A stretch of 32,169 nt of DNA, from positions 1 through 32,169 of the forward strand of contig NZ_CYSG01000026.1 of NCBI RefSeq assembly GCF_001457775.1. Reading direction: 5' to 3'. Of the stretch, positions 626 to 17,040 are shown piece by piece. Below the pieces are notes generated by a model, which was not told where the DNA came from, ran no database searches, and saw nothing but the letters and a program-made list of their open reading frames with translations. Origin of the DNA: Phaeobacter sp. CECT 5382. Lineage in GTDB: Bacteria > Pseudomonadota > Alphaproteobacteria > Rhodobacterales > Rhodobacteraceae. Each line of letters opens with the position of its first letter. Position 1 is the first letter of the stretch. The position numbers were made by a program, and so were the translations under genes.

Positions 626-1453
626 TTATGTGATCCTCAATATGCAACGCGCTTCGCTTGGTGTTGCGACCGGTCGCTGATGTTGCGCGCAGATATCAGC
701 GACACGTTGCACCAGCGCGGCATTCGAAGGAGCAAGCTGCGTCTTGTTGAAGCGGATGTTGTCCTCAAGCCCTGTGCGCGCATGGCCCCCCGACGACACC
801 GACCATTCATTCAAAACCATCTGATTTGCACCAATCCCGGCTGCACACCACTGGGCATCTTCGCCAAACAGGCGTTTGACGGTCTGTACGTAAAAGTCGA
901 ACACTTGGCGATCTGCAGGCATGGCGTTTTTTACCCCCATCACGAATTGTACATATGGGGTATCTTTGATCTGACCGCGTCTGTGCATGTCTGCGGCCTT
1001 CAGAATGTGGGACAGATCAAAGGCTTCGATCTCCGGCTTGATAGCATGGGACATCATTTCAGCCGCGAGCCAGTCCACAAGGTCAGGTGGGTTTTCATAA
1101 ACCCGCTTGGGGAAATTGTTTGACCCCACCGAAAGCGAGGCCATGTCGGGGCCCAGTGGCAGCATGCCCCCCCGTGTTTGGCCTGCCCCTGACCGCCCCC
1201 CCGTAGAGAACTGGATGATCATGCCGGGGCAATGTTTTTCGACACCTTCTTTCAGCGCTGCGAATTTTCCAGGGTCACTGGACGGGGTTTCGTCGTCATT
1301 GCGCACATGGGCATGCACGATGCTTGCCCCCGCCTCAAAAGCCGCATGTGTGCTTTCAATTTGCTCGGAGACAGTGATCGGGACGGCCGGGTTATCCACC
1401 TTGCGCGGCAAGCTCCCGGTGATCGCGACACAGATGATACAAGGCGCGTTCAT
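626..1453 (-). CDS. BKACE / DUF849 beta-keto acid cleavage enzyme
   Basis: This 275-residue protein belongs to the BKACE (3-keto-5-aminohexanoate cleavage enzyme-like) family. These are zinc enzymes that react a beta-keto acid with acetyl-CoA to give acetoacetate and the CoA ester of the shortened acid. The sequence shows the zinc motif HAH (His47, His49), the FSTGGRSG substrate loop (82-89), and GGHARTGLEDN (222-232), which supplies Arg226, zinc ligand Glu230 and Asp231. Length and C-terminus (ATPSEARCIL) look complete. Its ATG overlaps the dioxygenase stop as ATGA, so the two are translationally coupled. It is the last gene of an operon that makes 3-oxoadipate, itself a beta-keto acid. I therefore infer that 3-oxoadipate is the substrate, yielding succinyl-CoA and acetoacetate. 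The family call is firm; the substrate is inference from context. Confidence 0.9.
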   Translation of the reverse strand: MNAPCIICVAITGSLPRKVDNPAVPITVSEQIESTHAAFEAGASIVHAHVRNDDETPSSDPGKFAALKEGVEKHCPGMIIQFSTGGRSGAGQTRGGMLPLGPDMASLSVGSNNFPKRVYENPPDLVDWLAAEMMSHAIKPEIEAFDLSHILKAADMHRRGQIKDTPYVQFVMGVKNAMPADRQVFDFYVQTVKRLFGEDAQWCAAGIGANQMVLNEWSVSSGGHARTGLEDNIRFNKTQLAPSNAALVQRVADICAQHQRPVATPSEARCILRIT

Positions 1454-2334
1454 GTGTTTGGGGCCAATACAAAATCATGGACCACTTCGTAGTAAGGGCC
1501 ATCAAAGCCAGCCTCTGCGATGCGGGCCGGGTCTTTGACCAACTCAAACTTGGCGAGCAGGCTTTCTTTCACGCCAAAGACCGCATCCGAATGGATGTAA
1601 GGATCGTCAGGATCAAAGATATGTGTGATCAATGTCTCAAATCCATCTGCCTCGAGAATGTAGTGCAAATGCGCAGGCCTGAAGGGATGGCGCCCAAGTT
1701 TTTCGAGCATTTGGCCAACAGGACCATCATCGGGAATGGGGTAGAATTTTGGCTTTACCCCTTTGAAATGATATGTGCCATCCGACCCAGTGCGAAACAC
1801 GCCGCGCAGATTAAAGTCGGGCTGAAGTCCTTTTTGCTGAACATCATAAAATCCCTCGTCATTTGCCTGCCAGACATCGATCTTAACGCCCTTGATCGGA
1901 GCGCCATCGGTACCAAGGATGCGGCCCTTGACCAACATTGGTTCACCCTTTTCGTCAAGGCAGATGTCAGACCCCATGGGCAACTCTGGTGCATCCGGCA
2001 CATGAAACGGGCCAAGCACGGTGGATTCTGATGCGCCTGATGGCTTGCGGTTGTTGATGGCATCGACCAGCATTGACACCCCAAGGCTATCTGACAGCAG
2101 GATAAACTCTTGTCGCCAATCATCGCAGGTGTGCCCTACTTTAGTGAGGAACTGGATCGCTTCGAACCATTCTTCCTGCGTCGGCTCGATCTCTTTTACG
2201 GCAGCGTGCAGATGTTTGGTGATCGCACCCATAACTTCAGCAAGGCGTGCGTGTTTTGCCTCTGCATTGCGACTGATCACAACCTCGGCGGAATTTTCTT
2301 CGGTGAAATAACCCTGTTCTTGTGTGGACATCAT
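1450..2334 (-). CDS. Intradiol ring-cleavage dioxygenase, probably hydroxyquinol 1,2-dioxygenase
   Basis: This 294-residue non-haem Fe(III) intradiol dioxygenase has an N-terminal helical dimerisation domain (about 1-105) and a catalytic beta-sandwich. The expected iron ligands are visible: Tyr163 (EGFYD), Tyr198 (KFYPIPDDGP), and His222 and His224 (RPAHLHYI), at nearly the classical catechol-dioxygenase spacing. The ESTVLGPFHV and PFRPAHLHYIL segments resemble hydroxyquinol dioxygenases more than catechol ones. Hydroxyquinol cleavage gives maleylacetate, which fits the maleylacetate reductase at the operon's start. Two adjacent ATGs are possible starts (2334 or 2331); an AGGA sits just upstream, and the second ATG has the better spacing. 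The gene begins 6 nt after the monooxygenase stop. Chlorocatechol or catechol activity cannot be excluded from sequence alone. Confidence 0.9.
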   Translation of the reverse strand: MMSTQEQGYFTEENSAEVVISRNAEAKHARLAEVMGAITKHLHAAVKEIEPTQEEWFEAIQFLTKVGHTCDDWRQEFILLSDSLGVSMLVDAINNRKPSGASESTVLGPFHVPDAPELPMGSDICLDEKGEPMLVKGRILGTDGAPIKGVKIDVWQANDEGFYDVQQKGLQPDFNLRGVFRTGSDGTYHFKGVKPKFYPIPDDGPVGQMLEKLGRHPFRPAHLHYILEADGFETLITHIFDPDDPYIHSDAVFGVKESLLAKFELVKDPARIAEAGFDGPYYEVVHDFVLAPNT

Positions 2335-2340
2335 GTTTTC

Positions 2341-4095
2341 CTATCGTGCCAGAATTGAAGTCAGAACGCGGGTCAGCTCCGCTACTGGATCATCCGCCAT
2401 CGCGTCATTGCGCCAGCAGACATGTTGATCGGGTCGGGTCAGAATGCAGCCCGCATCGCCCACTTCACGCGCGCGGGCCCAATCGCCAGTGTGATCGACA
2501 TATTCCTGACGCGGGCCAATAACATGCGCCTCTAGTTTGATGCCCAACTCCTTGGCAACTTTTTCTGCAGCCTCTGCCCAGCCTTTGCCGCCAAGGCCAG
2601 TGAAGAGCGTGAACGCCCCACTACCCGCGAGGTCAAGCGTTGAGTGCTTGTCGCCTTTTTCGTCAAAGAGCCAGGCATGTGGAATACGTGCGCCGGGCCA
2701 TGTGGTTGGCTGATAATGAAGGTCCGCATCCAAGGCAAAATCGGGTTCGATTTGGCCATCCGTCACAGCCGCAGCTGAGGCATAGCGCTGGTTCATTTCA
2801 ACACCATGCGCATCAAATTCGTACTTCTTGAACGCAATGGCTGAATTCAACGCAGCGCGTTGTCCCTCTGCCTCAGGTGTCGTGTCACATCGCGCATCCA
2901 TGTTGGCTTTGATCTGCTCAATGTCCGCCCCGCCCGTCATGCCGAGCGCCTCAAAAATTGGACCGAATTCACCGATAGACTGGTTTGCTCGAGTCACGAT
3001 CTGTTTTGCCACAGGCGCGCGCTCGGCCGTGTAGCTGTCTAGCAAACTCTCGCCTGCTTCACCTTTGACCACGGCGGCCATTTTCCAACACAGGTTGAAT
3101 GCGTCTTGAATGGAGGTGTTCGAGCCAAGCCCATTTGAAGGCGGATGCCGGTGCGCCGCGTCACCCATGATGAACACGCGCCCTTTGGACATTTCAGTCG
3201 CGTAGGTATCGTTTACCGTCCAGGTGTTGGCGCTGATGAGATCAATCTCAAGCTCTGGATCACCAACCAATTGGCGGGCCACATCTGTCGCCATCGCCTC
3301 GTCCACCACAGGAGCGGGTTCGTTGATATCGTAGCCCCAAACGATCAGCCATTCGTTCCAGGGGCGGATCGCGCGGATCAGACCCATGCCGATCCCACCG
3401 ACATTCGCGCCGGGCTGCATCACCCAATAAAGCACCGAAGGGCGATGGGCGACATATTTGGTCAGGTCAGCGCGGAAGTAGATATTCATCGACCCGCCAA
3501 CACCCATTTGGCCTTCGAAAGGCAAACCTTCGTTCTCAGCCACCAGTGAATTGCCACCATCTGCACCAATTAGATATTTCGAGCGAATGGTGATTTCCTT
3601 GCCCGTCATGCGATCAAGGCAGGTGGTTGTCACGCCCTCTGCATCTTGAACGTGAGATTTGTATTCCGTGCTCATCCGGGCTCGGGTGCCGCGCTTGCAG
3701 GCCGTTTTGAACAGAATGGGTTCCATGAAGGTCTGCGGCAGATCGTTCATGAGGCTGGGCGAGGACAGCAGGTGTTCCGCCTTGGACAAGGGATGCGTCC
3801 CCCAGGATTTCATACGCCCAATTTCTTCGCCTGCAAGGCTTTCGCAGAACACGTTTTCGCCCATAAGGCTCTGGTCCATTGCATTGAGGTAGACCTCGTG
3901 CTCCACCTCTTTGCCCAGATCCCGCAGCACTTCCATCGTGCGTTGGTTGGTGATGTGCGCGCGTGGCGTGTTTGCCAGCCAGTGATACCGGTTGATGACG
4001 ATATTCTCGACACCGTAGCTGGACAACAGGGCTCCGCTTGTGGAGCCAGCAGGCCCGGTACCGATGATCAAAACCTCTGTCGTGATATCTGCCAT
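2341..4095 (-). CDS. FAD-dependent aromatic monooxygenase (phenol hydroxylase / TfdB-like)
   Basis: This 584-residue single-component flavoprotein hydroxylase has the dinucleotide motif GTGPAG (12-17) near the N-terminus, the NADPH/FAD DG motif in IGADGGNS (176-183), and the second FAD motif MGDAAHRHPP (310-319). A C-terminal thioredoxin-like domain is typical of the phenol-hydroxylase branch. I chose the ATG at 4095 over an upstream in-frame start because GAGGAGA lies just before it and the longer start would run into livM; the gap to the livM stop is 4 nt. By context it should produce hydroxyquinol for the next enzyme, for example from resorcinol or by decarboxylative hydroxylation of a dihydroxybenzoate. 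The transporter in the operon favours an acidic substrate. The exact substrate cannot be read from the sequence; a chlorophenol role has no other support here. Confidence 0.85.
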   Translation of the reverse strand: MADITTEVLIIGTGPAGSTSGALLSSYGVENIVINRYHWLANTPRAHITNQRTMEVLRDLGKEVEHEVYLNAMDQSLMGENVFCESLAGEEIGRMKSWGTHPLSKAEHLLSSPSLMNDLPQTFMEPILFKTACKRGTRARMSTEYKSHVQDAEGVTTTCLDRMTGKEITIRSKYLIGADGGNSLVAENEGLPFEGQMGVGGSMNIYFRADLTKYVAHRPSVLYWVMQPGANVGGIGMGLIRAIRPWNEWLIVWGYDINEPAPVVDEAMATDVARQLVGDPELEIDLISANTWTVNDTYATEMSKGRVFIMGDAAHRHPPSNGLGSNTSIQDAFNLCWKMAAVVKGEAGESLLDSYTAERAPVAKQIVTRANQSIGEFGPIFEALGMTGGADIEQIKANMDARCDTTPEAEGQRAALNSAIAFKKYEFDAHGVEMNQRYASAAAVTDGQIEPDFALDADLHYQPTTWPGARIPHAWLFDEKGDKHSTLDLAGSGAFTLFTGLGGKGWAEAAEKVAKELGIKLEAHVIGPRQEYVDHTGDWARAREVGDAGCILTRPDQHVCWRNDAMADDPVAELTRVLTSILAR

Positions 4096-4099
4096 GAGT

Positions 4100-5155
4100 T
4101 TATTTCTCCTCAAGTTTGAGTCTGCCACCACTCAGGCGGCGGCGTATTGGAAAAAGGTGAAGCCCGGTGCGTTCGGAGACGAGCCCCCAAAGGCCACGTG
4201 GGGCGACCAGCATGATCGCGATGGCCAGCACACCAAGGGTCATAAGATACCAGCTGCCAAAATCAGCGAGCAGGGATTGCAGCGCAAAGAACACAAGCAC
4301 TCCGAGGATCGGGCCCTCAATGGTGCCGATGCCGCCGATGACAACAATGAAAATCACATAGGCCGTCCAGTCGGTGACGCTAAAGGCCGCGTCTGGGCTG
4401 ATGCGGGCTTTTTGCATATAGATCAGCCCCCCTGCGAGCCCGGTGCCAAAAGCGGAGCTCAGGAACACGATCCATTTCATCCGCCCTGCATCCACACCAA
4501 CGGATTCTGCAGCCTGGGTGTTGTCACGCACTGCGGCCAAAGCAAGCCCGCGCCGCGTGCGCAGCAACCAGTAGATGCAGCCGATTGTCACAAGAGCCAG
4601 CACCAGTGCCAGCCAATAGGCCAGGATATCGCGTGCCGCGGCTGAGCGCACATCAAGCGTCTCTTTGATGAGATCAACGAACCACATGTCGCGGGTTGCG
4701 TCACGGGGCAAGGATGTACCGGTTCCGCCGCCCAGGGTTTTCCATTGGGCAACCAGCAAGCGCACCACTTCGGCGATGACCCAGGTACCGATGGCAAAAT
4801 AGGCGCCATTGAGGCGGAAAGCGAAAAACGCGGTGGGTACAGCGATCACTAGTGCTGCGATGCCTGCAAAAAGGATCGCGGGAACTGGATCAACGCCCCA
4901 AAGGATCACCGCGCCGAACAGCGCGTAGGCGCCGATGCCGACCAGGGCCTGTTGTCCAATGCTGACGAGCCCGCTGTATCCTGCAAGCAGGTTCCAGAAC
5001 TGAGCCAGAACCAGCATCGTTAGGATGAAAAACATGTCCTGAATGGTGCTGCGACCTGCAAAGAACGGCAGCGCGATCAAAACGACGATCACGACGATGC
5101 CAAGGAGCGCAGCAATCCGTGAGGCGGGGGTTTGGATTGTTACAGAATATGCCAT
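4100..5155 (-). CDS. livM: LivM-type ABC transporter permease
   Basis: This 351-residue inner-membrane protein has about nine to ten hydrophobic segments. It carries the LivM-family features GYSGLVSIGQQALVGIGAY (near residue 60) and GGIGTIEGPILGVLVFF (near 275), the cytoplasmic loop that contacts the ATPase. It pairs with LivH to form the channel of a HAAT (branched-chain amino acid type) importer. Its ATG overlaps the livH stop as TGATG. Members of this family often carry aromatic acids when encoded beside aromatic catabolic genes, and I infer that here. The symbol denotes the family and does not imply leucine transport. Confidence 0.92.
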   Translation of the reverse strand: MAYSVTIQTPASRIAALLGIVVIVVLIALPFFAGRSTIQDMFFILTMLVLAQFWNLLAGYSGLVSIGQQALVGIGAYALFGAVILWGVDPVPAILFAGIAALVIAVPTAFFAFRLNGAYFAIGTWVIAEVVRLLVAQWKTLGGGTGTSLPRDATRDMWFVDLIKETLDVRSAAARDILAYWLALVLALVTIGCIYWLLRTRRGLALAAVRDNTQAAESVGVDAGRMKWIVFLSSAFGTGLAGGLIYMQKARISPDAAFSVTDWTAYVIFIVVIGGIGTIEGPILGVLVFFALQSLLADFGSWYLMTLGVLAIAIMLVAPRGLWGLVSERTGLHLFPIRRRLSGGRLKLEEK

Positions 5156-6018
5156 CAGTCACTCGCTCTTGGAAATAGGCCACGGGGTCGAATAAGGAGC
5201 ACCAAAAGAAACGCTATATGCCCGGAAAGGATTTGCCATTCGGGATTGATGGCCGCGCCCAGTGTTTGGGCCACCCCAATGATGACCCCGCCCAGTAGCG
5301 TGCCCCAGAGCGAGCCAAGACCACCGATGATAACGGCCTCGAAGGCATAGATCAGGCGGGCAGGACCGATATTGGGGTCAAAATTTGCACGCAAGCCAAG
5401 GTAGAGCGCCGCGATTGTGACGATCACTAGGGCAATGCCTGTGGCGGTTGCAAAGATGTTAGCGGGCTTGATGCCCATCAGGCTTGCGGTGATCGCATCA
5501 TCGGATGTCGCACGAAAGGCGCGGCCAAGCTCGGTTCGATAAAACAGCTGGTTTAGCCCAACGATCACCAAAACAGCAGAGCCAAAGGTCAGCAACGGCA
5601 TGACACCCAGAGTGATTGGCCCAATATCAAGAGAGGCCGTTGTCAGCGCATTTGTCGGCAAGCGTTGGCTATCAGCAGAGAAGCCTTCCAGAAGTGCGTT
5701 TTGCAACGCAATCGACAGACCAAATGTCACCAGAAGGGGCGGCAGGATATCATCCCCCAGAGTTCGGTTCAGCAGGTGCTTTTGCAGAACATAGCCAAAC
5801 ACAAACATCAGAGGCATTGCGATGAGAACAGCGATAAAAGGGGAAATGCCCAGCAAGGTCACCAGCACTAAAATGAGGTAAGCGCCCATCACAATCAGAT
5901 CGCCATGCGCGAGGTTCACCAGGCGCATGATGCCGAACACAAGGCTCAGACCTGAGGCGAAAAGTGCGTAAAGGCCACCCAAGAGGATGCCTTGAATGAT
6001 TGTATCGATCCAGATCAA
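5155..6018 (-). CDS. livH: LivH-type ABC transporter permease
   Basis: This 287-residue permease has the classic LivH N-terminus (GGLYALFASGLSLVFGIMR, then LVNLAHGDLIVMGAY) and the conserved GGLGSLWGTLLGGVIIG loop near the C-terminus. The start appears to be TTG at 6018, overlapping the livF stop (TTGA). GGAG lies 7 nt upstream, and no ATG occurs in frame before the conserved MRLVNLAHG motif. It forms the second half of the transport channel with LivM. The weak start codon and overlap suggest translation is coupled to livF. Confidence 0.92.
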   Translation of the reverse strand: MIWIDTIIQGILLGGLYALFASGLSLVFGIMRLVNLAHGDLIVMGAYLILVLVTLLGISPFIAVLIAMPLMFVFGYVLQKHLLNRTLGDDILPPLLVTFGLSIALQNALLEGFSADSQRLPTNALTTASLDIGPITLGVMPLLTFGSAVLVIVGLNQLFYRTELGRAFRATSDDAITASLMGIKPANIFATATGIALVIVTIAALYLGLRANFDPNIGPARLIYAFEAVIIGGLGSLWGTLLGGVIIGVAQTLGAAINPEWQILSGHIAFLLVLLIRPRGLFPRASD

Positions 6019-6722
6019 TGGCCTGCTCCGAAATATGCGTCGTGAATGTCGTCGCGCGAGAGGCTATCGGGCGTGCCCGTCAGGGTGACGCGCCCCTCCA
6101 TCATGCAATAGACACGGTCGGCGACGGCCATGGCCTGCGCGATGTCCTGTTCCACCACGATCAACGATGCGCCCGCCGTTTTGATCTGTGGAATGGCTTG
6201 GTAAATGTCCTTGATGACGACGGGCGCAAGGCCGAGACTGATTTCATCGCAAAGAAGCACGCGCGGGTTGCTCATCAGGGCGCGGCCAATGGCGACCATC
6301 TGTTGCTGACCACCTGATAGCGCCGTCCCCGGGTTGTTACGCCGCTCGCCCAGGATCGGGAACAGCTCATAAACAGTGTCCAGCGTCCAATGCCCCTTGA
6401 TTTTGCGCCCGTAGGTGCCGATCAAAAGATTCTCTTCGACGCTGAGAGACGGGAAAAGCCTGCGCCCTTCCGGCACCATCGCGACGCCTTGGGACATGAT
6501 CTCATCTGCGGGGGACGCGCCAATTGGGGTGCCATCATAGGTGACCGCATTGGGATCATTGCGCAAAACGCCAGAGATCGAACGCATGAGCGTTGTCTTG
6601 CCGGCCCCATTCGCGCCGATGATGGCAATGGTTTCAGCCTCACCCAATTCGATATCGACGCCAAAGAGCGCTTGAAAATCTCCGTAGTGGGCGGTCAGCT
6701 CTTTTGTTTGCAAAAGACTCAT
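6015..6722 (-). CDS. livF: LivF-type ABC transporter ATP-binding protein
   Basis: This 235-residue cytoplasmic ATPase shows Walker A GANGAGKTT (about 35-43), the ABC signature LSGGQQQM (about 135-142) and Walker B VLLCDEISLGLAP, followed by the conserved switch region. The length is normal for LivF. The ATG overlaps the livG stop as TGATG and its stop overlaps the livH start, so livG-livF-livH-livM read as one coupled block. It energises the importer together with LivG. Confidence 0.93.
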   Translation of the reverse strand: MSLLQTKELTAHYGDFQALFGVDIELGEAETIAIIGANGAGKTTLMRSISGVLRNDPNAVTYDGTPIGASPADEIMSQGVAMVPEGRRLFPSLSVEENLLIGTYGRKIKGHWTLDTVYELFPILGERRNNPGTALSGGQQQMVAIGRALMSNPRVLLCDEISLGLAPVVIKDIYQAIPQIKTAGASLIVVEQDIAQAMAVADRVYCMMEGRVTLTGTPDSLSRDDIHDAYFGAGH

Positions 6723-7441
6723 CAGACGTCGATCCCCAGGTAAATTTCACGAACTTCACGGCTTGCCATGATTTCTTCCGGGTCACCCAGGCCGATGACT
6801 TTGCCGAAATCCAGCACCAGTAAGCGCTCAACCACCGAGGTCAGCGCGTGTAGAACATGTTCAATCCAGATGATTGTGACGCCCTGGGCATGGATGTCTT
6901 TGATTGTACGGATCAGGGCCTGACACTCGCCTTCCGTCAAGCCGCCTGCAATTTCATCCAGCAACAACAGTTTGGGCTGCGTCGCCATGGCGCGTGAAAG
7001 CTCCAGACGCTTGCGTTCCAGCAGCGACAACTGGCCTGCAGGCCTGTTCGCTTGGGCGATCAGTTCCGTACGCTCCAACACCTCGGCGCAATCATCACGC
7101 ACCGCCGCTTCGGACATGTTGCGTCCATGGGTCGCGGCGACCAGGAGGTTCTCGTAGACTGTCATTTTTCCAAAGGGCTGCGGGATTTGAAACGACCGTC
7201 CGATCCCTGTCAGGCAGCGTTCCATCGCAGAGACTTTGGTCACGTCGCGCCCTTCAAAATGAATGCTGCCCTGATCGGCGCGGATGTTGCCGGTGATGAG
7301 ATTAAACAGGGTCGATTTACCCGCACCATTTGGCCCGATAATCCCGAGCGCCTGGCCCTGAGGGACATCAAAGCTGGCATCGTTGGTGACCGTCAATGCG
7401 CCAAAGCTTTTGGAAACGGATTGGAGTGATAGGATCGACAT
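6722..7441 (-). CDS. livG: LivG-type ABC transporter ATP-binding protein
   Basis: This 239-residue ATPase has Walker A GPNGAGKST, a Q-loop region GIGRSFQIPQPF, a signature helix around LSLLERKRLELSRAMA (a LivG-style variant in place of LSGGQ) and Walker B LLLLDEIAGGL. The start is taken at the ATG at 7441 (MSILSLQSV) because GGAAAA precedes it. A longer in-frame start at 7474 would add an unconserved leader. A 93-bp gap with a GC hairpin separates it from the binding-protein gene, the only sizeable gap inside the operon. Confidence 0.92.
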   Translation of the reverse strand: MSILSLQSVSKSFGALTVTNDASFDVPQGQALGIIGPNGAGKSTLFNLITGNIRADQGSIHFEGRDVTKVSAMERCLTGIGRSFQIPQPFGKMTVYENLLVAATHGRNMSEAAVRDDCAEVLERTELIAQANRPAGQLSLLERKRLELSRAMATQPKLLLLDEIAGGLTEGECQALIRTIKDIHAQGVTIIWIEHVLHALTSVVERLLVLDFGKVIGLGDPEEIMASREVREIYLGIDV

Positions 7442-7493
7442 AGCATTTTCCAAGACCCGAAAACCTGGGGCCATCTAACAAAAGAGAGAGGGA

Positions 7494-7521
7494 TGCGCCC
7501 CGACAAGAGCAGCGGGGCGCA
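7494..7521 (-). terminator. GC-rich hairpin between the binding-protein gene and livG (attenuator or mRNA stabiliser)
   Basis: The arms TGCGCCCCG and CGGGGCGCA form a perfect 9-bp stem with a 10-nt loop, just downstream of the solute-binding protein stop. In the minus direction it is followed by the T-rich but imperfect run TCCCTCTCTCTTTTG. Binding proteins are usually needed in excess over their membrane partners. A partial terminator or 3'-end stabiliser at this place would give that ratio, but the function is inferred. Confidence 0.55.
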
Positions 7522-7534
7522 GGCTTGGCAGACC

Positions 7535-8809
7535 TCAGGAGATTTCTTCCATCGCGCCGCCTGCCGGAATGATTGGATGATCGGAGTTGTCCACAATCAC
7601 TAGATCGTAGCCGCCGCCGTCTTTAAGGCGCCATTGCCCTCCCACGAGCGGGGTCTTGGCAACGTTCTGCGCCGCGATAGGCGGCAGGCCTGCGCCATCA
7701 AAGGCGATGCGGCCAACCATTGTATCCAGTTGTGTTGCGGCGATTGCAGAGGTGACTTCATCAGGATCACGGCTGTCTTTTACACGCCCCATGACATTTG
7801 CTGCCATCTCGAACAGGGCATGTACAAAGCCTATTGGCTGGGTCCAATGCTTGCCAGTCGCAGCCGAATAACCTGCGGCAAGATCGCCTGCGGATTGACC
7901 TGTGAGTGAAGACGTAAAGGGATGCGACGGCGACCACCAGACTTCCGAACTCAGGTTGTGACCGTGAGCGCCGAGTGACTCGACGGCTTGCGGGAACAGG
8001 ATCGCTTTGCCGATGCTGGCGGCCTTTGGGTTGAACCCCTGCTGTTTGGCCTGTGTCCAGAAGGTGGTGAAATCTGGCGGAATGGGAACGCCGGTGACGA
8101 TCTCGCAACTGGCTGCCTTGAAAGCATTGATTTGCGCGCTGAAGTCATCGGTGAGGTTCTGATAACGGCCCGTATCGGTCAGGTTAAACCCCTGGGCATC
8201 CAGCACCGGTGGGAAGCCTATATTTGGATCCCCCCAGGCATTGCCGTCCCCATCATTTGGGAAAATGGCCCCGACCGATTTATTGGTATCGAGCTGGTTC
8301 CACATGGCAGTGAAGGTGGAAATGACATCCTCCAGCCCCCAGAAGAAGTGGAAGCTGAAATCAAACGGCCGCCAGCTATTGGGATCGCCAGGGTTGCCCT
8401 GCTGACCGATAAAATAGGGCTGCCAAGGCGCGACGGTGGAGATCACAGGGATCTCTTCTGACTCGCAGGTCGTTGCGACCGGATTTGTCGTTTCCGGTGT
8501 CGAAGCCACAAGCATCATGTCGATTTCGTCGTCGATAATCAGCTCTTTGGCGACTTCGGCGGCGCGGTTTGGGTTGGACTGGCTGTCCTTGACGATCACT
8601 TCGAAGTTGGCACCGGCATCAGAATTCAGGAACCCGTCGATGATGAATTTATCGGCATCCGAAAAGGCCGCTAGTGGACCCGACTGTGGGCTGACATAGC
8701 CAAGGCGGATTTTTGCACCCTGCGCCAGGGCAGGAGCAGCAAGCCCTCCTGCAGCCAGCGTGAGACCTGTTGCGGCGGATGATTGAAGTAGCTTACGGCG
8801 TGATAGCAT
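7535..8809 (-). CDS. Periplasmic substrate-binding protein of the Liv-type ABC transporter (Tat-exported)
   Basis: This 424-residue protein has a twin-arginine-like leader (SRRKLLQSSAATG at 3-15, hydrophobic stretch, cleavage near APALAQ at 30). The mature part is a type I periplasmic binding fold beginning IRLGYVSPQSGPLAAF. GGGAGGACATT precedes the ATG. It should capture the imported substrate and deliver it to LivHM. Tat export implies folding in the cytoplasm, common for binding proteins in this order. It sits between maleylacetate reductase and livG, so the ligand is likely the aromatic precursor of the pathway; the ligand is not identifiable from sequence. Confidence 0.9.
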   Translation of the reverse strand: MLSRRKLLQSSAATGLTLAAGGLAAPALAQGAKIRLGYVSPQSGPLAAFSDADKFIIDGFLNSDAGANFEVIVKDSQSNPNRAAEVAKELIIDDEIDMMLVASTPETTNPVATTCESEEIPVISTVAPWQPYFIGQQGNPGDPNSWRPFDFSFHFFWGLEDVISTFTAMWNQLDTNKSVGAIFPNDGDGNAWGDPNIGFPPVLDAQGFNLTDTGRYQNLTDDFSAQINAFKAASCEIVTGVPIPPDFTTFWTQAKQQGFNPKAASIGKAILFPQAVESLGAHGHNLSSEVWWSPSHPFTSSLTGQSAGDLAAGYSAATGKHWTQPIGFVHALFEMAANVMGRVKDSRDPDEVTSAIAATQLDTMVGRIAFDGAGLPPIAAQNVAKTPLVGGQWRLKDGGGYDLVIVDNSDHPIIPAGGAMEEIS

Positions 8810-8834
8810 AATGTCCTCCCAAACATCGTGATGC

Positions 8835-9899
8835 TTATTGAATCGGTGCGTCCCCGGCCCACGCCGCCTGCAAGAGCGCGCGAATGTCGACGCGCGTTAC
8901 GGGCCGTGGGTTTGGATAGGGTTTTGTGGTTGCCAGATCTGCAGCGCGATCAAGATCGCTCTCTTGCAGGCCAAGATCGCGCAATGCGGTTGGCGCGTTC
9001 ATTTGTTTGGCGAAATCGTGAAGCGCTGTTCCAGCGTTATCGCCGCCCAAAAGATCACAAATTGGCTGCAATTCTCTCGCGGCGGCGCGTGCATTGTAGG
9101 CAATGGCATGAGGCAAAACGATCGCATGAGTTTCTGCATGCGGCAAATTGAAAGAGCCTCCCAGCGTGTGGCAAAGCTTGTGATGTAAGGCCATGCCGAC
9201 CTGCCCCAAAACGGTCCCGCAGGCCCAGGCGCCGCGCTGCGTCGCTTCGCGCGCGTCCAGATCAGACGGGGTCGTCAGAACTTTGGGCAGACCCTCTATG
9301 AAGGATTCAAGGCCCTGGATCGCCATTGCGGTTGTTCCGCCTGTTCGATTAGTTCCATAGAGCGCCTCTGCCGCGTGGGCCATCGCATTCAGCGCCGATG
9401 TGACAGTCATTGGAACAGGAAGAGTCATCACCAATTCAGAATCGTATAGAATGACCTCTGGCAAAATGCTTGGGTCGCTCAGCGTGGTTTTGACGCCATT
9501 TTCCGTTTGGCCGAGGATGGGCGTGCATTCACTGCCTGCGTAGGTGGTTGGGATCACGATCTGTGGCAGGTTGGTTCTAAAAGCAATCGCTTTTCCTAGC
9601 CCTGTGGTTGATCCGCCACCGATGGCAATCAGGCAATCTGCCTGCGTTTCTGCAACATGTGTCATAGCGTCCTCGGTGACATGAACCGGGGTGTGCATTT
9701 CGGCTTTGCAAAAGACCCCGACCGCCAAAGAACCAAGCAGTTCGGCTATCTCCAACGCCGCGCCGCTCTGTTGAGGCGTGGAGAGAACCAGCGCTTTGGT
9801 GACCCCGAGCCGCCGAGCTTCGGCGGCGATGGAAATGCGCCTTGCCGCCCCAAAGACGACGCGAACAGCTTGGTCTGAATTCTGAGTTGGCTGTGCCAC
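8835..9899 (-). CDS. Maleylacetate reductase
   Basis: This is an iron-containing alcohol dehydrogenase-family enzyme of 354 residues that reduces maleylacetate to 3-oxoadipate with NAD(P)H. Visible motifs are VRVVFGA (12-18), the nucleotide loop GGGSTTGLGKA (94-104), PTTYAGSECTPILGQTENG (117-135), and HHKLCHTLGGSFNLPHAETH (239-258), which is very typical of maleylacetate reductases. I favour the GTG at 9899 because GGAGAAG lies 5 nt upstream and the resulting length fits the family. An ATG at 9929 would add ten residues. It is the first gene of the catabolic operon and works directly after the ring-cleavage enzyme encoded near the operon's far end. Confidence 0.92.
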   Translation of the reverse strand: MAQPTQNSDQAVRVVFGAARRISIAAEARRLGVTKALVLSTPQQSGAALEIAELLGSLAVGVFCKAEMHTPVHVTEDAMTHVAETQADCLIAIGGGSTTGLGKAIAFRTNLPQIVIPTTYAGSECTPILGQTENGVKTTLSDPSILPEVILYDSELVMTLPVPMTVTSALNAMAHAAEALYGTNRTGGTTAMAIQGLESFIEGLPKVLTTPSDLDAREATQRGAWACGTVLGQVGMALHHKLCHTLGGSFNLPHAETHAIVLPHAIAYNARAAARELQPICDLLGGDNAGTALHDFAKQMNAPTALRDLGLQESDLDRAADLATTKPYPNPRPVTRVDIRALLQAAWAGDAPIQ

Positions 9900-9975
9900 G
9901 ATGTCTTCTCCGCTCTTTGTTTCCTCCATAGTAGATGCAAAAACTGAGTGGTTGATCGAATTGGCGGCAAACAAT

Positions 9976-9990
9976 ATAACTTGATGTTAT
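9976..9990. promoter_or_regulatory. Candidate LysR-type operator over the regulator's start codon
   Basis: ATAAC-TTGAT-GTTAT is a 15-bp interrupted palindrome that contains a T-N11-A arrangement, the usual core of a LysR-type box. It lies between the divergent lysR and maleylacetate reductase genes, and its right arm includes the first two bases of the lysR ATG (9989-9991). Binding here could repress lysR and activate the catabolic operon. No clear Shine-Dalgarno sequence precedes the lysR ATG. Confidence 0.55.
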
Positions 9991-10939
9991 GAAAATTGAT
10001 CCAAATCACCTACATATGCTGTCTGCAATCATCGACTCCGGTGGATTGGGCGAAGGTGCTGCCGCATTAAACAAGTCCCAACCAAGCGTTTCTCGCTCTT
10101 TGGCGATGCTGGAAAAGAGGCTTGGTGCGCGGTTATTCGAAAAAGGGAAAAGACCCCTGAGACCGACAGAACTTTGCCAGACGCTGGCTGAACAGGGAAG
10201 GGTGGTCGCAAATGCCAGTGAGGCAGCCCAAACTGCTGCGGAGCTTTATTCCGGAGGGAAGGCTGGAACCGCACGCATTGCGGGCACACCAATATTTATG
10301 GACGGCGTTATTTCGGGGATGCTTGCTTCATTTCAATCTGCCTTTCCCGATGTTACTATTCATCAAACCTATGGTTATCTACCAGAGCTCTGCGAACAGC
10401 TCAGCGTTGGCAATATCGATTTGGCAATATGCCCGGTCAAAACAAATGCGGTGCCACCTAAATTGAGTTTCAAACCAATTTTGCGCGGTAGAAATGTCAT
10501 TGCATGTGCGCCGTCTCACCCTCTAGCACGTAAATCAGCGTTCAAGCTGGAAGATATAGCCGCCTACCCTTGGATTGCGCCACCTGCTGGAAGTCCACTC
10601 TATGAAGACCTGCGCATGGCTCTCCAGAGTATAGGGATCACGGACTTCCGAGTTAGCTTCACAGGTGGATCTCTCGCTTCAATATTTAGCGTGATGGCTG
10701 GATCAAATTCTCTCACTGTTTTGCCGTATTCAGTCGTATTCATGCAAAGCACTACGAAGATCATCACAGCACTCCCGGTGAAACTGGAACATCCGGAAAG
10801 AGAACTTGGGCTTTTGTGGGACGCTGACCGCCCCCTTCGCCCGGCAGTTAAACGGTTCCATAAGTTCCTAGAGGCTGAGTTTACAGACTTGGCGCAGCGC
10901 ATTGATGAAAAAGGTCGCCAAGACGTTTGGCGACGTTGA
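9989..10939 (+). CDS. LysR-type transcriptional regulator of the catabolic operon
   Basis: This 316-residue protein has an N-terminal winged helix-turn-helix (about 5-65, including QPSVSRSLAMLEKRLGARLFE) and a LysR effector-binding domain (about 95-300). It is divergent from the nine-gene aromatic operon with only about 90 bp between the starts, the classical layout for a pathway-specific LysR activator. The effector is probably the imported aromatic compound or a ring-cleavage intermediate. The stop lies 1 nt before the left end of an IS5-like relic at 10941, so the insertion landed right behind the gene without disrupting it. Confidence 0.9.
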   Translation: MKIDPNHLHMLSAIIDSGGLGEGAAALNKSQPSVSRSLAMLEKRLGARLFEKGKRPLRPTELCQTLAEQGRVVANASEAAQTAAELYSGGKAGTARIAGTPIFMDGVISGMLASFQSAFPDVTIHQTYGYLPELCEQLSVGNIDLAICPVKTNAVPPKLSFKPILRGRNVIACAPSHPLARKSAFKLEDIAAYPWIAPPAGSPLYEDLRMALQSIGITDFRVSFTGGSLASIFSVMAGSNSLTVLPYSVVFMQSTTKIITALPVKLEHPERELGLLWDADRPLRPAVKRFHKFLEAEFTDLAQRIDEKGRQDVWRR

Positions 10940-10940
10940 T

Positions 10941-11122
10941 GGCTTTGTTGTACAAATGCGGTGAGAGATTTCTATCGTGTTTCTAGGTCGATAGCTGGAT
11001 GGCATGAGCAGTTGGCCCCTTACGAAGTACGAGACCAGGAACTGGCCTTCGTACAACACCGTACCACCGCCGAAGCCGCGTCGAAACAAAGATGCACTGT
11101 ATGAAACTGATGGGCCAATGCC
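10941..11122 (+). mobile_element. Internally deleted IS5-like relic with its left end
   Basis: The left terminal sequence GGCTTTGTTGTACAAAT (10941-10957) is the inverted counterpart of the right ends at 38-55 and 13963-13980. From 11004 the first residues of an IS5-type transposase read MSSWPLTKYETRNWPSYN. Around 11061 the sequence jumps, out of frame, to the transposase's C-terminal part YHRRSRVETKMHCMKLMGQ (about 11062-11118). Most of the gene is therefore deleted. It then runs into an IS3-family fragment near 11120. The element is non-functional. Confidence 0.75.
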
Positions 11123-11505
11123 TGCGAGGCGGGCCAAGCGTGCAACGCGGTTCTCTGAGACGGCCTCGCCGATGTCGCTGAGATCATCGTGGATCTTGCG
11201 GTAACCGGAGACCTTGCCGCTGTCTTTCCACGCTTTCTCGACCAGCTTGGTTTGACGTTCACCTTCGAGCGCACGCTGGCTCAACGGCTCTTTTACCCAT
11301 GCATAAAAAACGCTCGGGTGAACGCTGAGCATTTTGCAAAGAACACGGACGGGATGCAGCAGTCGATGCGCGTCGATGAACGCGTATCGACTGCTGCATC
11401 CCTGGCGAAGTACGCGGTGGCCTTTTTTAGGATGTCACGTTCCTCCGTGACCCGATCCAGCTCCTTCTTAAGGCGGCGAACCTCTCCTTCTTGGTCCGTC
11501 TGCAT
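11120..11505 (-). pseudogene. IS3-family transposase fragment: 3' end of orfA and 5' part of orfB
   Basis: Reading leftward from 11505, the orfA tail (EVRRLKKELDRVTEERDILKK) is followed in the -1 frame by the orfB start region (YAFIDAHRLLHPVRVLC), then SVHPSVFYAWVKEPLSQRA and GKVSGYRKIHDDLSD, ending at RLARLAGI near 11122. The sequence then changes to the IS5-like relic on the other strand. The N-terminus of orfA and the whole DDE integrase domain are missing. It is not simply the other half of the orfB piece at 13046-13425: both lie on the minus strand in the wrong order to be one split element, so two copies or a rearrangement is implied. Confidence 0.8.
11351..11430 (-). promoter_or_regulatory. 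IS3 programmed -1 frameshift signal (slippery heptamer plus hairpin)
   Basis: On the minus strand the orfA codons CTA AAA AAG (11430-11422) contain the slippery heptamer A AAA AAG in the correct phase. About 20 nt downstream is a long hairpin (11351-11402): a 17-bp perfect stem built on GATGCAGCAGTCGAT and its complement, one mismatch, five more base pairs and a 6-nt loop. A -1 slip joins orfA to the orfB frame with no intervening stop. This is the standard recoding device of IS3 elements, preserved here in a dead fragment. Confidence 0.75.
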
Positions 11506-14208: not shown

Positions 14209-16029
14209 TTGACCAAGGAATTTCGCATTCACAAGTCTGGGCAGTCCCATTCTTTGGCTTACAATTCGGGCGCAAACGCTGCATCGACAAAGGCCGCTGG
14301 TCTAGGTTTTAGGGGACCTCGAAACAGGAATGCCGCTGGGAAATCAGCCAAAACTGTTTCGGAAAAGGATCTTCTGCTTCGAGATATTTTGCGAGCCATC
14401 GTCAAAAACAGCCGTGACGAGGCACTCAAACTATTGGACATCGCGGTGCGCCAATACCCTGAGGATGCCTCGTTTCACATGTATCGCGGCGAAGTCTTGC
14501 TGCGCCAGAGCAATTTCAACCAAGCGCTGACCTGTTTTGCCGTCGCGTTGAAGTTGCAACCATCCAATGCTCGCATTCTGGCCTCGATTGGCGGCGCGCT
14601 TTACATGATGAAACGCAACAGTGAAGCCAAAGAGTTCTTTCAGGCGGCCAATCTCCTTGATCCGACACTTGTGATTGCAGCATCCAATCTGGTTCATACG
14701 TCGCTTACGGAAAGCGACTGGGGGTTCTATTCCAACATCGATCAAATGATCAAGGTTCTGGCTAGTGATCCCGTCGAAGGCAGCCCTTTCAACCTTCTGG
14801 CTCTTGTCGATGATGCTGCGTTGCAAAAGAAAAGGCTGGCTGAACGGGATCGCCTGTTGCGAAAAACCGTTGTTGCAAACAAACACTTCAAACGGAAAAA
14901 AGTGAAAGAGCGTCGCATTCGTCTGGGGTATTTCTCATGCGACTTCTTCGACCATGCCACGATGTTTCTGCTGGGGCAGGCCTTTGCGCGGCATGACCGG
15001 GATCGCTTTGAGGTTTTCGTCTATGATTACGGGCCCGACAAAGGTTGCGCTGAACAACAACTGGTGCGCAAAGCTGCAGATACCTATCGCCAGGTTAACA
15101 AGCTCAGCGATGAAGGTCTGGCTAAACTGGCCCGCGAAGATGGCATCGATATTGCCATTGATCTGAAGGGGCATACCAATGGCAATCGCTTGCCCGTCTT
15201 TGCCTTTCGTGCTGCTCCCGTTCAGGTTAGCTATCTTGGCTTTCCCGGAACCACAGGGATGAAGGACATGGATTATTTCGTTGCAGATCCGGTCAGCATC
15301 CCGACAGATCAGCGTCAGCATTTTTCTGAAAAAATCCTCTATATGCCAGATAGCTATCAGATCAATGACAACACGCGTCCGCATCCTGAAACGGTGCCAA
15401 CACGGGCAGAACTGGGACTGCCCGAAGAGGCTTTTGTCTTTTGTAGTTTGAACAATCCTAACAAAGTGACGCCTGCTGAATTCGATGTCTGGATGCAGCT
15501 TTTGCATGAGGTTCCTGACAGTGTTTTCTGGCTCCTGGCTCCGGATCAGAACCTAAGAGACAACCTGCTGAAAGAAGCGCAGGCGCGCGGGATAGGTCCT
15601 GATCGCATTGTCTTTGCCGGTCGGGTGAGCCCGTCGCAGCATCTGGCACGTCTTCCGCAGGCGGATCTTTTCCTGGATGCGTTTAATTGTAACGCGCACA
15701 CCACTGCGAGCGAAGCCCTGTGGTCCGGTGTGCCCTTGGTCACCAAGATGGGTAAACAATTTGCAGCGCGCGTGGCCGCCAGCGTGCTGACGGCGGTCGG
15801 CTGCCAGGATCTTATCACCGAAACGGTCGAAGACTATCATGATCTGGCACTCAAACTGGCGCAGGATCGCGCAGCACTTGATGCGATCCGGGCTCGGCTC
15901 AAAGGCAACATCACCACAACGCCGCTTTATGATACCGAGACTTTTGTGAAGAATTTCGAGGATCTGATGGAAAAGGCGATCCAACGCTATGATGCCGGGC
16001 TGAAGCCGAAGCATATTTCTCTGGGATAA
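14209..16029 (+). CDS. TPR-containing O-GlcNAc transferase-like (SPINDLY/GT41) protein
   Basis: This 606-residue protein has a basic N-terminal tail, TPR-like helices (about 55-180, with ASFHMYRGEVLLRQSNFNQA and ARILASIGGALYMMKRNSEA) and a C-terminal glycosyltransferase family 41 region (about 225-600). Family marks include RIRLGYFSCDFFDHATMFL, DIAIDLKGHTNGNR, APVQVSYLGFPGTTGMKDMDY, FCSLNNPNKVTP and the late sugar-nucleotide segment FNCNAHTTASEALWSGVPLV. It probably adds a sugar to protein Ser/Thr residues, or acts in surface glycan synthesis. The start is TTG at 14209, supported by AGGAGG exactly 6 nt upstream. It stands alone, directly after an IS element, with a terminator-like hairpin behind it. 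The target protein is unknown. Confidence 0.87.
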   Translation: MTKEFRIHKSGQSHSLAYNSGANAASTKAAGLGFRGPRNRNAAGKSAKTVSEKDLLLRDILRAIVKNSRDEALKLLDIAVRQYPEDASFHMYRGEVLLRQSNFNQALTCFAVALKLQPSNARILASIGGALYMMKRNSEAKEFFQAANLLDPTLVIAASNLVHTSLTESDWGFYSNIDQMIKVLASDPVEGSPFNLLALVDDAALQKKRLAERDRLLRKTVVANKHFKRKKVKERRIRLGYFSCDFFDHATMFLLGQAFARHDRDRFEVFVYDYGPDKGCAEQQLVRKAADTYRQVNKLSDEGLAKLAREDGIDIAIDLKGHTNGNRLPVFAFRAAPVQVSYLGFPGTTGMKDMDYFVADPVSIPTDQRQHFSEKILYMPDSYQINDNTRPHPETVPTRAELGLPEEAFVFCSLNNPNKVTPAEFDVWMQLLHEVPDSVFWLLAPDQNLRDNLLKEAQARGIGPDRIVFAGRVSPSQHLARLPQADLFLDAFNCNAHTTASEALWSGVPLVTKMGKQFAARVAASVLTAVGCQDLITETVEDYHDLALKLAQDRAALDAIRARLKGNITTTPLYDTETFVKNFEDLMEKAIQRYDAGLKPKHISLG

Positions 16030-16190: not shown

Positions 16191-16805
16191 TTACAGTATG
16201 CGCACCTGTGTGCCGATTTTCACCATCTCAAACAACTGTTCAACATGCTGATTATAAAGACCAATACAGCCGGATGAGCTTTGACGTCCGATCTTGCGGG
16301 TGTCGTGGGTGCCATGCACCAGATAGGCAGGCCATGTGAGATACATCGCGCGTGTCCCCAGTGGATTGCCGGGGCCGCCATCCATGCGCTGCGGCAGACT
16401 TGGGTCACGTTCACGCATCGAGGCAGTGGGCGTCCAGCTGGGGTTTTTAGCCTTGCGCACCACTTTTGTATACCCGCGTTTGGTCAGCTCTTCAGACATG
16501 GGAACGGAAGAGGGGAACAGTCGGTAGGTCTCACCATCGCCATCCCAGAAATGCACGGCGCGAGAGGTCACATCGGCCAGCAGACAGCCGATGCCAAGTT
16601 CGTCAAAGTGATCCTGCCAATGCTGTTGCCGGAACGAAGAGATATTGCGCTGAACCACAGGCTGGTCACTGATTGGCGGCTCTTCCGACGGAAAGGCATC
16701 GGTGGATTGCGCACGCAACAGGCTGGGCGTGAACAGGCTGGGCGTAGCGAGGGCAGCACCCAATCCGAAAAGGGCGGCGCGGCGATGGATAGGTTTTGGG
16801 GGCAT
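16191..16805 (-). CDS. L,D-transpeptidase (YkuD domain), Tat signal
   Basis: This 204-residue exported enzyme has an HRRAALFGLGAAL leader resembling a twin-arginine signal, with cleavage near residue 33. The mature part contains the YkuD catalytic motif: His164 in YLVHGTHD, then GRQSSSGCIGLYN with catalytic Cys180. Such enzymes form 3-3 cross-links in peptidoglycan or attach lipoproteins to it. The small size without LysM or PG-binding domains is common in alphaproteobacteria, which carry many paralogues. A 15-bp tandem duplication in the signal peptide encodes TPSLF-TPSLL. It converges with the GT41 gene and is monocistronic. Confidence 0.9.
   Translation of the reverse strand: MPPKPIHRRAALFGLGAALATPSLFTPSLLRAQSTDAFPSEEPPISDQPVVQRNISSFRQQHWQDHFDELGIGCLLADVTSRAVHFWDGDGETYRLFPSSVPMSEELTKRGYTKVVRKAKNPSWTPTASMRERDPSLPQRMDGGPGNPLGTRAMYLTWPAYLVHGTHDTRKIGRQSSSGCIGLYNQHVEQLFEMVKIGTQVRIL
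16717..16746. repeat. 15-bp tandem duplication in the L,D-transpeptidase signal peptide
   Basis: AACAGGCTGGGCGTG is followed directly by AACAGGCTGGGCGTA (14 of 15 identical). It is in frame and lengthens the hydrophobic/C-region of the leader by five residues. Confidence 0.8.
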
Positions 16806-16985
16806 GGAAGACCTGCGAGACGGGAAAGTTCATTATATGCTCTGGTTCCCAACTATATGGGGATCAGGATGGAACTTCCTAGGGAGCAGAAGGTCACATT
16901 TTCGTTTTTCTCCCTGTCTCTGGCTGGAGGGCTAGTCAGTTCCTGCAGGCGCCTGAGAGTAGAAAAAAAACCTGCGTTGGAAACG

Positions 16986-17014
16986 AAAATGGCCCCGAAA
17001 AAAATCCGAGGCCA
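16986..17014 (-). terminator. Intrinsic terminator of mmsA
   Basis: Read on the minus strand, TGGCCTCG, an AT-rich loop and CGGGGCCA form an 8-bp stem including one G-U pair, followed by TTTT. It lies about 25 bp past the mmsA stop. Confidence 0.65.
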
Positions 17015-17040
17015 TTCCATTTCATCTACAAAACAAAGTG

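Follow-up and report, generated by a model that had tools for sequence, protein, structure and literature searches.

A hydroxyquinol operon of Phaeobacter sp. CECT 5382 predicted to end in a beta-keto acid cleavage enzyme, and related copies of this enzyme in clusters of three aromatic branches

The closest described systems are aromatic-degradation operons in which a gene of the beta-keto acid cleavage enzyme family (BKACE, also met as DUF849, COG3246 or Kce) accompanies the ring-cleavage genes. The pca operons of Methylobacterium contain a DUF849 gene and no pcaIJF, and the accessible part of that paper considers a novel variant possible (PMC8963497). A pcaHG-kce-pcaBL set together with van genes gave M. 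extorquens growth on protocatechuate, kce not being tested singly in the available text (PMC12379598). In Ralstonia eutropha (Cupriavidus) H16, a COG3246 gene found with catBCD was suggested to cleave beta-ketoadipate, going by part of that paper (PMC6449761). For deoxyribonate catabolism, a partly available study indicates that the acetoacetate from the BKACE step needs activation and a thiolase (PMC6365646). Here we describe a contig of Phaeobacter sp. CECT 5382 (NZ_CYSG01000026.1, positions 1 to 32,169, hereafter the window; this is the entire contig C26 of a 4.11 Mb genome in 56 contigs), in which a BKACE gene closes a hydroxyquinol operon, and we hypothesise that its product ends the route by cleaving 3-oxoadipate.

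The window BKACE resembles the NF053568 subgroup of the BKACE/DUF849 family (PF05853) in having the same residues and the same predicted reaction; no difference was found in the enzyme itself, and the operon setting differs. It is like the Methylobacterium system in that a BKACE stands for pcaI, pcaJ and pcaF in an operon that produces 3-oxoadipate. However, as far as the available texts go (PMC8963497; PMC12379598), that system concerns the protocatechuate branch only, whereas the window genome has hydroxyquinol, catechol and protocatechuate copies, and its relatives show linkage to scoAB. The Cupriavidus system likewise has a BKACE-type gene co-regulated with a ring-cleavage operon, but of the catechol branch and in a betaproteobacterium (PMC6449761, in part). 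What is already known is the predicted activity, which NCBIfam names, and the presence of BKACE genes in pca and cat operons. What is new is the hydroxyquinol setting and the BKACE pattern across three branches; the roseobacter linkage of pcaHG to a BKACE may have been described in earlier work. The literature searched, with most subscription journals outside it, has no hydroxyquinol alongside DUF849, BKACE, COG3246, Kce or 'beta-keto acid cleavage'. This agrees with an earlier note on this DNA, which knew of no described hydroxyquinol operon with a BKACE. The note had also proposed the BKACE as the 3-oxoadipate-cleaving end; the sequence supports this, and the activity had been proposed before (NF053568; PMC8963497, PMC12379598 and PMC6449761, each in part).

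The operon runs on the minus strand from 9974 to 626. Its genes, in order of transcription, and the divergent regulator are:

8835-9974, minus strand: maleylacetate reductase, iron-containing alcohol dehydrogenase (Fe-ADH) family (PF00465/PF25137; solved relatives)
7535-8809, minus strand: periplasmic substrate-binding protein of the importer (PF13458)
6722-7474, minus strand: Liv-type ATP-binding cassette (ABC) ATPase, LivG/UrtD-like (PF00005)
6015-6722, minus strand: Liv-type ABC ATPase, LivF-like (PF00005; best NCBIfam match LivF, below cut-off)
5155-6018, minus strand: Liv-type ABC permease, LivH/UrtB-like (PF02653)
4100-5155, minus strand: Liv-type ABC permease, LivM-like (PF02653)
2341-4131, minus strand: class A flavin (FAD) aromatic hydroxylase, presumed hydroxyquinol-forming (PF01494 and PF21274)
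1450-2334, minus strand: intradiol ring-cleavage dioxygenase of hydroxyquinol 1,2-dioxygenase type (PF00775 and PF04444)
626-1453, minus strand: BKACE, predicted 3-oxoadipate:acetyl-CoA acetyltransferase, 275 residues (NF053568, PF05853, residues, solved relatives 3fa5, 3chv and 3no5)
9989-10939, plus strand: divergent LysR-type regulator (PF00126 and PF03466)

The eight junctions of the operon consist of gaps of 6, 25 and 60 bp and otherwise of overlaps, the BKACE start sharing four bases (ATGA, 1450-1453) with the dioxygenase stop. The reductase, the hydroxyquinol-type dioxygenase and the BKACE are thus located in one operon, with this overlap, as the earlier note described. Its span of 626-9899 was right as to the gene positions; the reductase reading frame reaches a TTG at 9974, 9899 being an in-frame GTG. 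The true start may be this GTG or the in-frame ATG at 9929. Between position 1, the contig end, and 625 there is no open reading frame of at least 150 residues lying wholly inside.

The window BKACE matches NF053568 ("3-oxoadipate:acetyl-CoA acetyltransferase") over its full length with 485.5 bits, above the curated equivalog cut-off of 350. The next NCBIfam model, Kce of lysine fermentation, gives 245.8 bits (cut-off 382), and PF05853 gives 302 bits. The nearest solved relatives (those listed above) are named merely DUF849 or uncharacterized protein. His47, His49, Arg226, Glu230 and Asp231, which we take to be the metal and catalytic residues of BKACEs, are intact, as had been noted before, and are present in 89/89 subfamily rows, some of these rows being near-identical or repeating one gene, as L095 and L116 do. 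Column 87 is Arg in all 89 rows, Met and Ile in the genome's two other BKACEs, and Ala in Kce (2y7d). Column 15 is Leu (70 rows) or Val (19), and Leu15 of the window protein aligns with a glutamate of Kce (2y7d), presumably Glu14, the ligand of the substrate amine. This alignment pattern makes Arg87 a candidate for the cation that would meet the distal carboxylate of 3-oxoadipate.

The genes making 3-oxoadipate share the BKACE operon, the dioxygenase and maleylacetate reductase being assigned by similarity, and the same neighbours are found in relatives. The best Protein Data Bank (PDB) matches of the dioxygenase are 6-chlorohydroxyquinol 1,2-dioxygenase (8r2x, 324.7 bits), PnpC (3n9t, 264.8) and hydroxyquinol 1,2-dioxygenase (1tmx, 240.8). 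These nearest solved relatives place it in the hydroxyquinol type; it lies over no NCBIfam cut-off. Similarly, the Fe-ADH protein is placed among maleylacetate reductases by 3w5s (416.3 bits) and 3hl0 (410.3 bits). The hydroxylase is closest to 2-hydroxybiphenyl 3-monooxygenase (588.9 bits) and 2,4-dichlorophenol 6-monooxygenase (455.4 bits).

PF05853 matches occur at five places in the genome, and three of them exceed the NF053568 cut-off, these three lying in clusters of three different branches. Besides the window copy, these are C27 (491.7 bits; catechol-type dioxygenase/catD-BKACE) and C15 (495.2 bits; pcaC-pcaH-pcaG-BKACE). The earlier note described this ending for hydroxyquinol; it is not peculiar to that branch, the same gene being found in clusters of all three. 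Two members of the C27 cluster, a muconate cycloisomerase and a benzoate dioxygenase, score over cut-off; the cluster also contains an importer judged by eye to be Liv-type, an intradiol dioxygenase, and an enol-lactone-hydrolase-like gene that overlaps the BKACE. Its intradiol dioxygenase is over no NCBIfam cut-off, the best models being chlorocatechol/catechol, and its hydrolase has no NCBIfam match at 1e-40, the catD-type naming coming from position, by eye. The two other BKACEs fall below the NF053568 cut-off and are of other subgroups. By eye, that on C7 (L018 8119-9120) adjoins a hydroxyacyl-CoA-dehydrogenase-like gene, and that on C8 (L020 8161-8937) lies between aminotransferase-like genes.

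The genome has a single intact pair of coenzyme A (CoA) transferase genes (PF01144), located on C5; a further copy, behind the C27 BKACE, is broken. The C5 pair belongs to the pcaI/scoA and pcaJ/scoB subfamilies, in the SCOT-like group. There is no PcaI-type gene in the genome, the best match to genuine PcaI being C5 subunit A at 45% identity, and the pair does not class as PcaI/PcaJ. The broken copy (L017 ~16640-17100) is 73% identical over 108 residues to the C5 scoA, and relatives have an intact scoA in the same place. For both reasons it was rejected as a dead pcaI, and we regard it as a scoA relic. Six thiolases pass the general model, and a single one, at 685 bits, exceeds the PcaF cut-off of 597. 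This one adjoins paaA, paaC and paaE, which we take to be the usual place of PaaJ. It does not class as a dedicated PcaF, and could still be shared; a PcaF dedicated to the hydroxyquinol pathway is thought unlikely, since the only PcaF-family thiolase is in the paa cluster. The earlier claim that PcaIJ and PcaF are missing holds among the genes identified in the window, while the genome has the SCOT-like pair and the paa-cluster thiolase.

On the basis of these observations, we hypothesise, with a probability of about 0.88, that the operon makes 3-oxoadipate via hydroxyquinol, that the BKACE ends the route, and that scoAB and a thiolase recover acetyl-CoA. The operon would import an aromatic compound and hydroxylate it to hydroxyquinol, which would be cleaved to maleylacetate and then reduced to 3-oxoadipate. 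The BKACE would convert 3-oxoadipate and acetyl-CoA into succinyl-CoA and acetoacetate. The single intact SCOT-like transferase (scoAB, contig C5) would then give acetoacetyl-CoA and succinate from acetoacetate and succinyl-CoA, and an ordinary thiolase would split acetoacetyl-CoA with CoA into two acetyl-CoA. By arithmetic from the known reactions, the sum would be 3-oxoadipate + CoA -> succinate + acetyl-CoA, equal to that of PcaIJ plus PcaF. One gene would replace three at the end of each branch, and the transferase and thiolase would become shared housekeeping enzymes. Such sharing would explain the presence of scoA-scoB behind the BKACE in relatives, and of three BKACEs for a single scoAB. 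Enzyme activity, flux, regulation and upstream substrate are here inferred from the genes.

The neighbourhoods of close BKACE relatives were collected by scanning named genomes with two short peptide patterns, which gave at least 592 stretches, of which the best 80 were kept. Partners were counted if they lay on the same strand and no further than 4.5 kb away, with a hydroxyquinol dioxygenase called at more than 55% identity. The partner is a hydroxyquinol dioxygenase in 11 loci, catD in 21 (11 also with scoA), pcaH/pcaG in 27 (2 also with scoA), and scoA alone in 1. The dioxygenase match ends no more than 17 bp from the BKACE in 10 of the 11 hydroxyquinol-linked loci (2.9 kb in L034). The full window order (maleylacetate reductase, importer, hydroxylase, dioxygenase, BKACE) recurs in 6/80 loci (L024, L027, L033, L038, L074 and L098), which argues that the arrangement is not due to chance. 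In five of the hydroxyquinol-linked loci (L024, L033, L038, L074 and L103), the genome has at least two BKACEs over the cut-off, and PcaI-type matches are absent from all five genomes (at best 46%).

scoA is found near the BKACE in 14 of the 80 loci, at most 42 bp behind it in 12 and 1.35 kb away in L079 and L093. scoB follows in 10 of the 14, the stretches L028, L058, L073 and L077 ending soon after. The earlier note saw in the BKACE step a shortcut without separate activation. This is rejected: the net reaction is identical, so the swap would reorder activation and skip none, moving it to acetoacetate, as the scoA genes close behind the BKACE in relatives and a scoA-scoB pair on a Phaeobacter plasmid suggest. 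One further side observation concerns survey genome G104, which has two scoA-like pieces, one beside a BKACE (C13:119226-119540) and the other where that contig begins (C13:7-417). This is probably a contig break through scoA and not decay.

Gene content, gene order, family membership, one BKACE per branch, and clusters with either ending are read directly from the genomes. The Phaeobacter piscinae plasmid pP18_a has pcaI-pcaJ-pcaF beside pcaD-pcaC-pcaH-pcaG-pcaB, with no BKACE in the 12.7 kb examined, and the P. inhibens plasmid pP88_d has pcaC-pcaH-pcaG-BKACE-scoA-scoB-pcaD-pcaB, with no pcaIJF in the 16.8 kb examined. The Ruegeria pomeroyi megaplasmid carries pobA-pcaC-pcaH-pcaG-BKACE. Three BKACEs are present in Roseovarius sp. 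217, and pcaC-pcaH-pcaG-BKACE-pcaD-pcaB contains one of them; no PcaI-type match exceeds 44% there, and a PcaF search at 1e-150 found nothing. One survey genome, G099, has a hydroxyquinol cluster like that of the window (hydroxylase 76%, dioxygenase 57% and maleylacetate reductase 64% identical), but differs in that the contig also carries pcaI-pcaJ-pcaF, at a distance of about 24 kb, and that no BKACE of the genome reaches the NF053568 cut-off.

The survey covered 110 genomes of the family, among them that of the window, each from a different genus and no less than 95% complete. A gene counted as PcaI when its product was at least 55% identical to the P. piscinae protein, a threshold of our own; the values drop from 55 to 50 with none between. 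The hydroxyquinol dioxygenase was called at 56% or more, also our threshold, and one match (G052) has five stops. An NF053568 BKACE is over the cut-off in 77/110 genomes and pcaH in 69/110. The pcaH genomes have a BKACE only in 55 cases, PcaI only in 4, both in 8 and neither in 2 (G013 and G052), so that 67/69 have one or the other. BKACE and pcaH co-occur (63/14/6/27 over the 110 genomes, Fisher p 3.5e-10), and within the 69 pcaH genomes BKACE and PcaI avoid each other (8/55/4/2, p 0.007), neither value being corrected for kinship. In 47/69 genomes, no more than 5 kb separates the BKACE from pcaH. In G013 and G052, which have pcaH and no NF053568 BKACE over the cut-off, CoA-transferases matching PcaI at 1e-20 are lacking as well.

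Several results weigh against the reading of the BKACE as the regular end of these routes. For 20 of the 80 loci, no tested partner lies inside 4.5 kb, and some NF053568-type BKACEs therefore stand alone or act otherwise; the available part of PMC4922564, which sets out the BKACE groups, describes these enzymes as promiscuous. Eight of the 69 pcaH genomes carry both endings, and PcaI lies within 8 kb of pcaH at 0/71 pcaH places. The protocatechuate branch on C15 was called from pcaC-pcaH-pcaG. The scoAB pair could act on 3-oxoadipate itself. In the survey, the hydroxyquinol dioxygenase occurs at 15 places in 14 genomes, and a BKACE is within 5 kb at just 5 places in 4 genomes, the window counted. 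The stretches L112, L117, L118, L119 and L120 have such a dioxygenase with no BKACE nearby; of the genomes behind them, G027 and G068 have PcaI, G043 and G086 a BKACE elsewhere, and G013 neither. The 14 genomes overall have a BKACE only in 7 cases, both endings in 1, PcaI only in 4 and neither in 2. Direct linkage to a BKACE is therefore a minority arrangement for the hydroxyquinol branch, and one ending or the other is usually carried. Lastly, the earlier note had suggested searching genomes for BKACE genes beside hydroxyquinol genes and testing whether pcaIJF is absent; 11 of the loci kept show this linkage, and the five genomes followed up have no PcaI-type match, but each of the same five has a PcaF-family thiolase.

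The partnerless loci include L026, L083 and L050, and L026, the nearest tree row to the window BKACE, appears to stand alone. The BKACE tree has 90 rows including one outgroup; it is a quick tree with many weak forks, with rows from L108 on trimmed to matched stretches and L113 beside the outgroup. It places 13 of the 16 hydroxyquinol-linked rows, with 3 unlabelled ones, in one group (SH-aLRT 93, not starred). The hydroxyquinol label needs 4 changes on the tree (shuffled mean 14.5), of which starred branches force 2, so this linkage probably arose on more than one occasion. Residue 17 (window ~1403-1405), a loop position, is Arg in 12/16 hydroxyquinol-linked rows and in 16/73 other rows, where Thr dominates; kinship may explain this. 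In the other columns checked, the hydroxyquinol-linked copies and the rest show little or no difference.

The better of two alternatives is a classical route with shared enzymes, in which scoAB would serve as PcaIJ, PaaJ or beta-oxidation thiolases as PcaF, and the BKACE would be auxiliary. Roseovarius nubinhibens has been read in this way in print, with pcaI/J, otherwise unidentified, assigned to ISM_RS03130/35 (PMC12442348, in part). It draws support from the PcaF-family thiolase in the window's genome and in 5/6 other genomes searched. According to the accessible text of that study, inactivation of ISM_RS03130, a CoA-transferase whose product rose on 4-hydroxybenzoate, stopped growth on this compound; the same phenotype would be expected if the gene were scoA, since the BKACE would spend one acetyl-CoA per turn that scoAB regains. 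In the same text, pcaF was unresponsive to 4-hydroxybenzoate, a pcaF/ISM_RS10035 double mutant merely reached a lower final optical density, and Roseovarius sp. 217 is treated as pcaF-deficient (PMC12442348). The genes of Roseovarius sp. 217, with three BKACEs and no PcaI-type or PcaF-family matches, suggest that ISM_RS03130/35 may be a SCOT. A shared-enzyme route also leaves the BKACEs in three branches' clusters unexplained, and we consider it improbable.

A still slighter chance attaches to action of the window BKACE on another beta-keto acid arising from the operon's intermediates, such as a substituted 3-oxoadipate if the hydroxyquinol carried chlorine or an alkyl group. The HbpA/TfdB-like hydroxylase and the dioxygenase relative named for 6-chlorohydroxyquinol make substituted substrates possible, and residue 17 differs with context, but the other columns hardly vary, 3-oxoadipate is what all three branches yield in common, and maleylacetate reductases often also dechlorinate, giving 3-oxoadipate anyway.

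As to the remainder of the window, the divergent LysR gene is likely to be the operon regulator. It is also found at L024, L027, L033, L038 and L074, and L098 keeps the window gene order without a LysR match. Resorcinol or a dihydroxybenzoate would fit as the upstream substrate, judging by the genes present. The Liv-type importer (4100-8809) suggests an acidic substrate, perhaps a dihydroxybenzoate, over free resorcinol, in which case the hydroxylase would also need to decarboxylate. A short open reading frame at 10868-11332 (minus strand) with an HTH_21 (IS3-type transposase) domain overlaps the 3' end of the LysR gene and is probably an insertion-sequence remnant. The gene at 14209-16029 (plus strand) encodes a TPR protein whose glycosyltransferase domain is of family 41 (O-GlcNAc transferase-like).

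Textbooks treat the final steps of aromatic catabolism as constant. In this family, it seems that different chemistry with the same net reaction has been swapped in, branch by branch. We think it fairly likely that in Rhodobacteraceae sensu lato, including the Roseobacter group (a scope taken from the names of the relatives), a BKACE plus an acetoacetate transferase is the default ending for 3-oxoadipate on all three branches, frequently with more than one BKACE copy, and with PcaIJF in the minority. If this is true, it would explain the roseobacters with 'missing pcaIJ' and the 'pcaF-deficient' ones in recent papers, and the genes assigned as pcaIJ there would be scoAB. The 2025 roseobacter study is then worth re-reading, and annotations of the kind 'pathway incomplete, pcaIJF missing' may be false negatives. 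For engineers, the BKACE would offer a terminal module of one gene.

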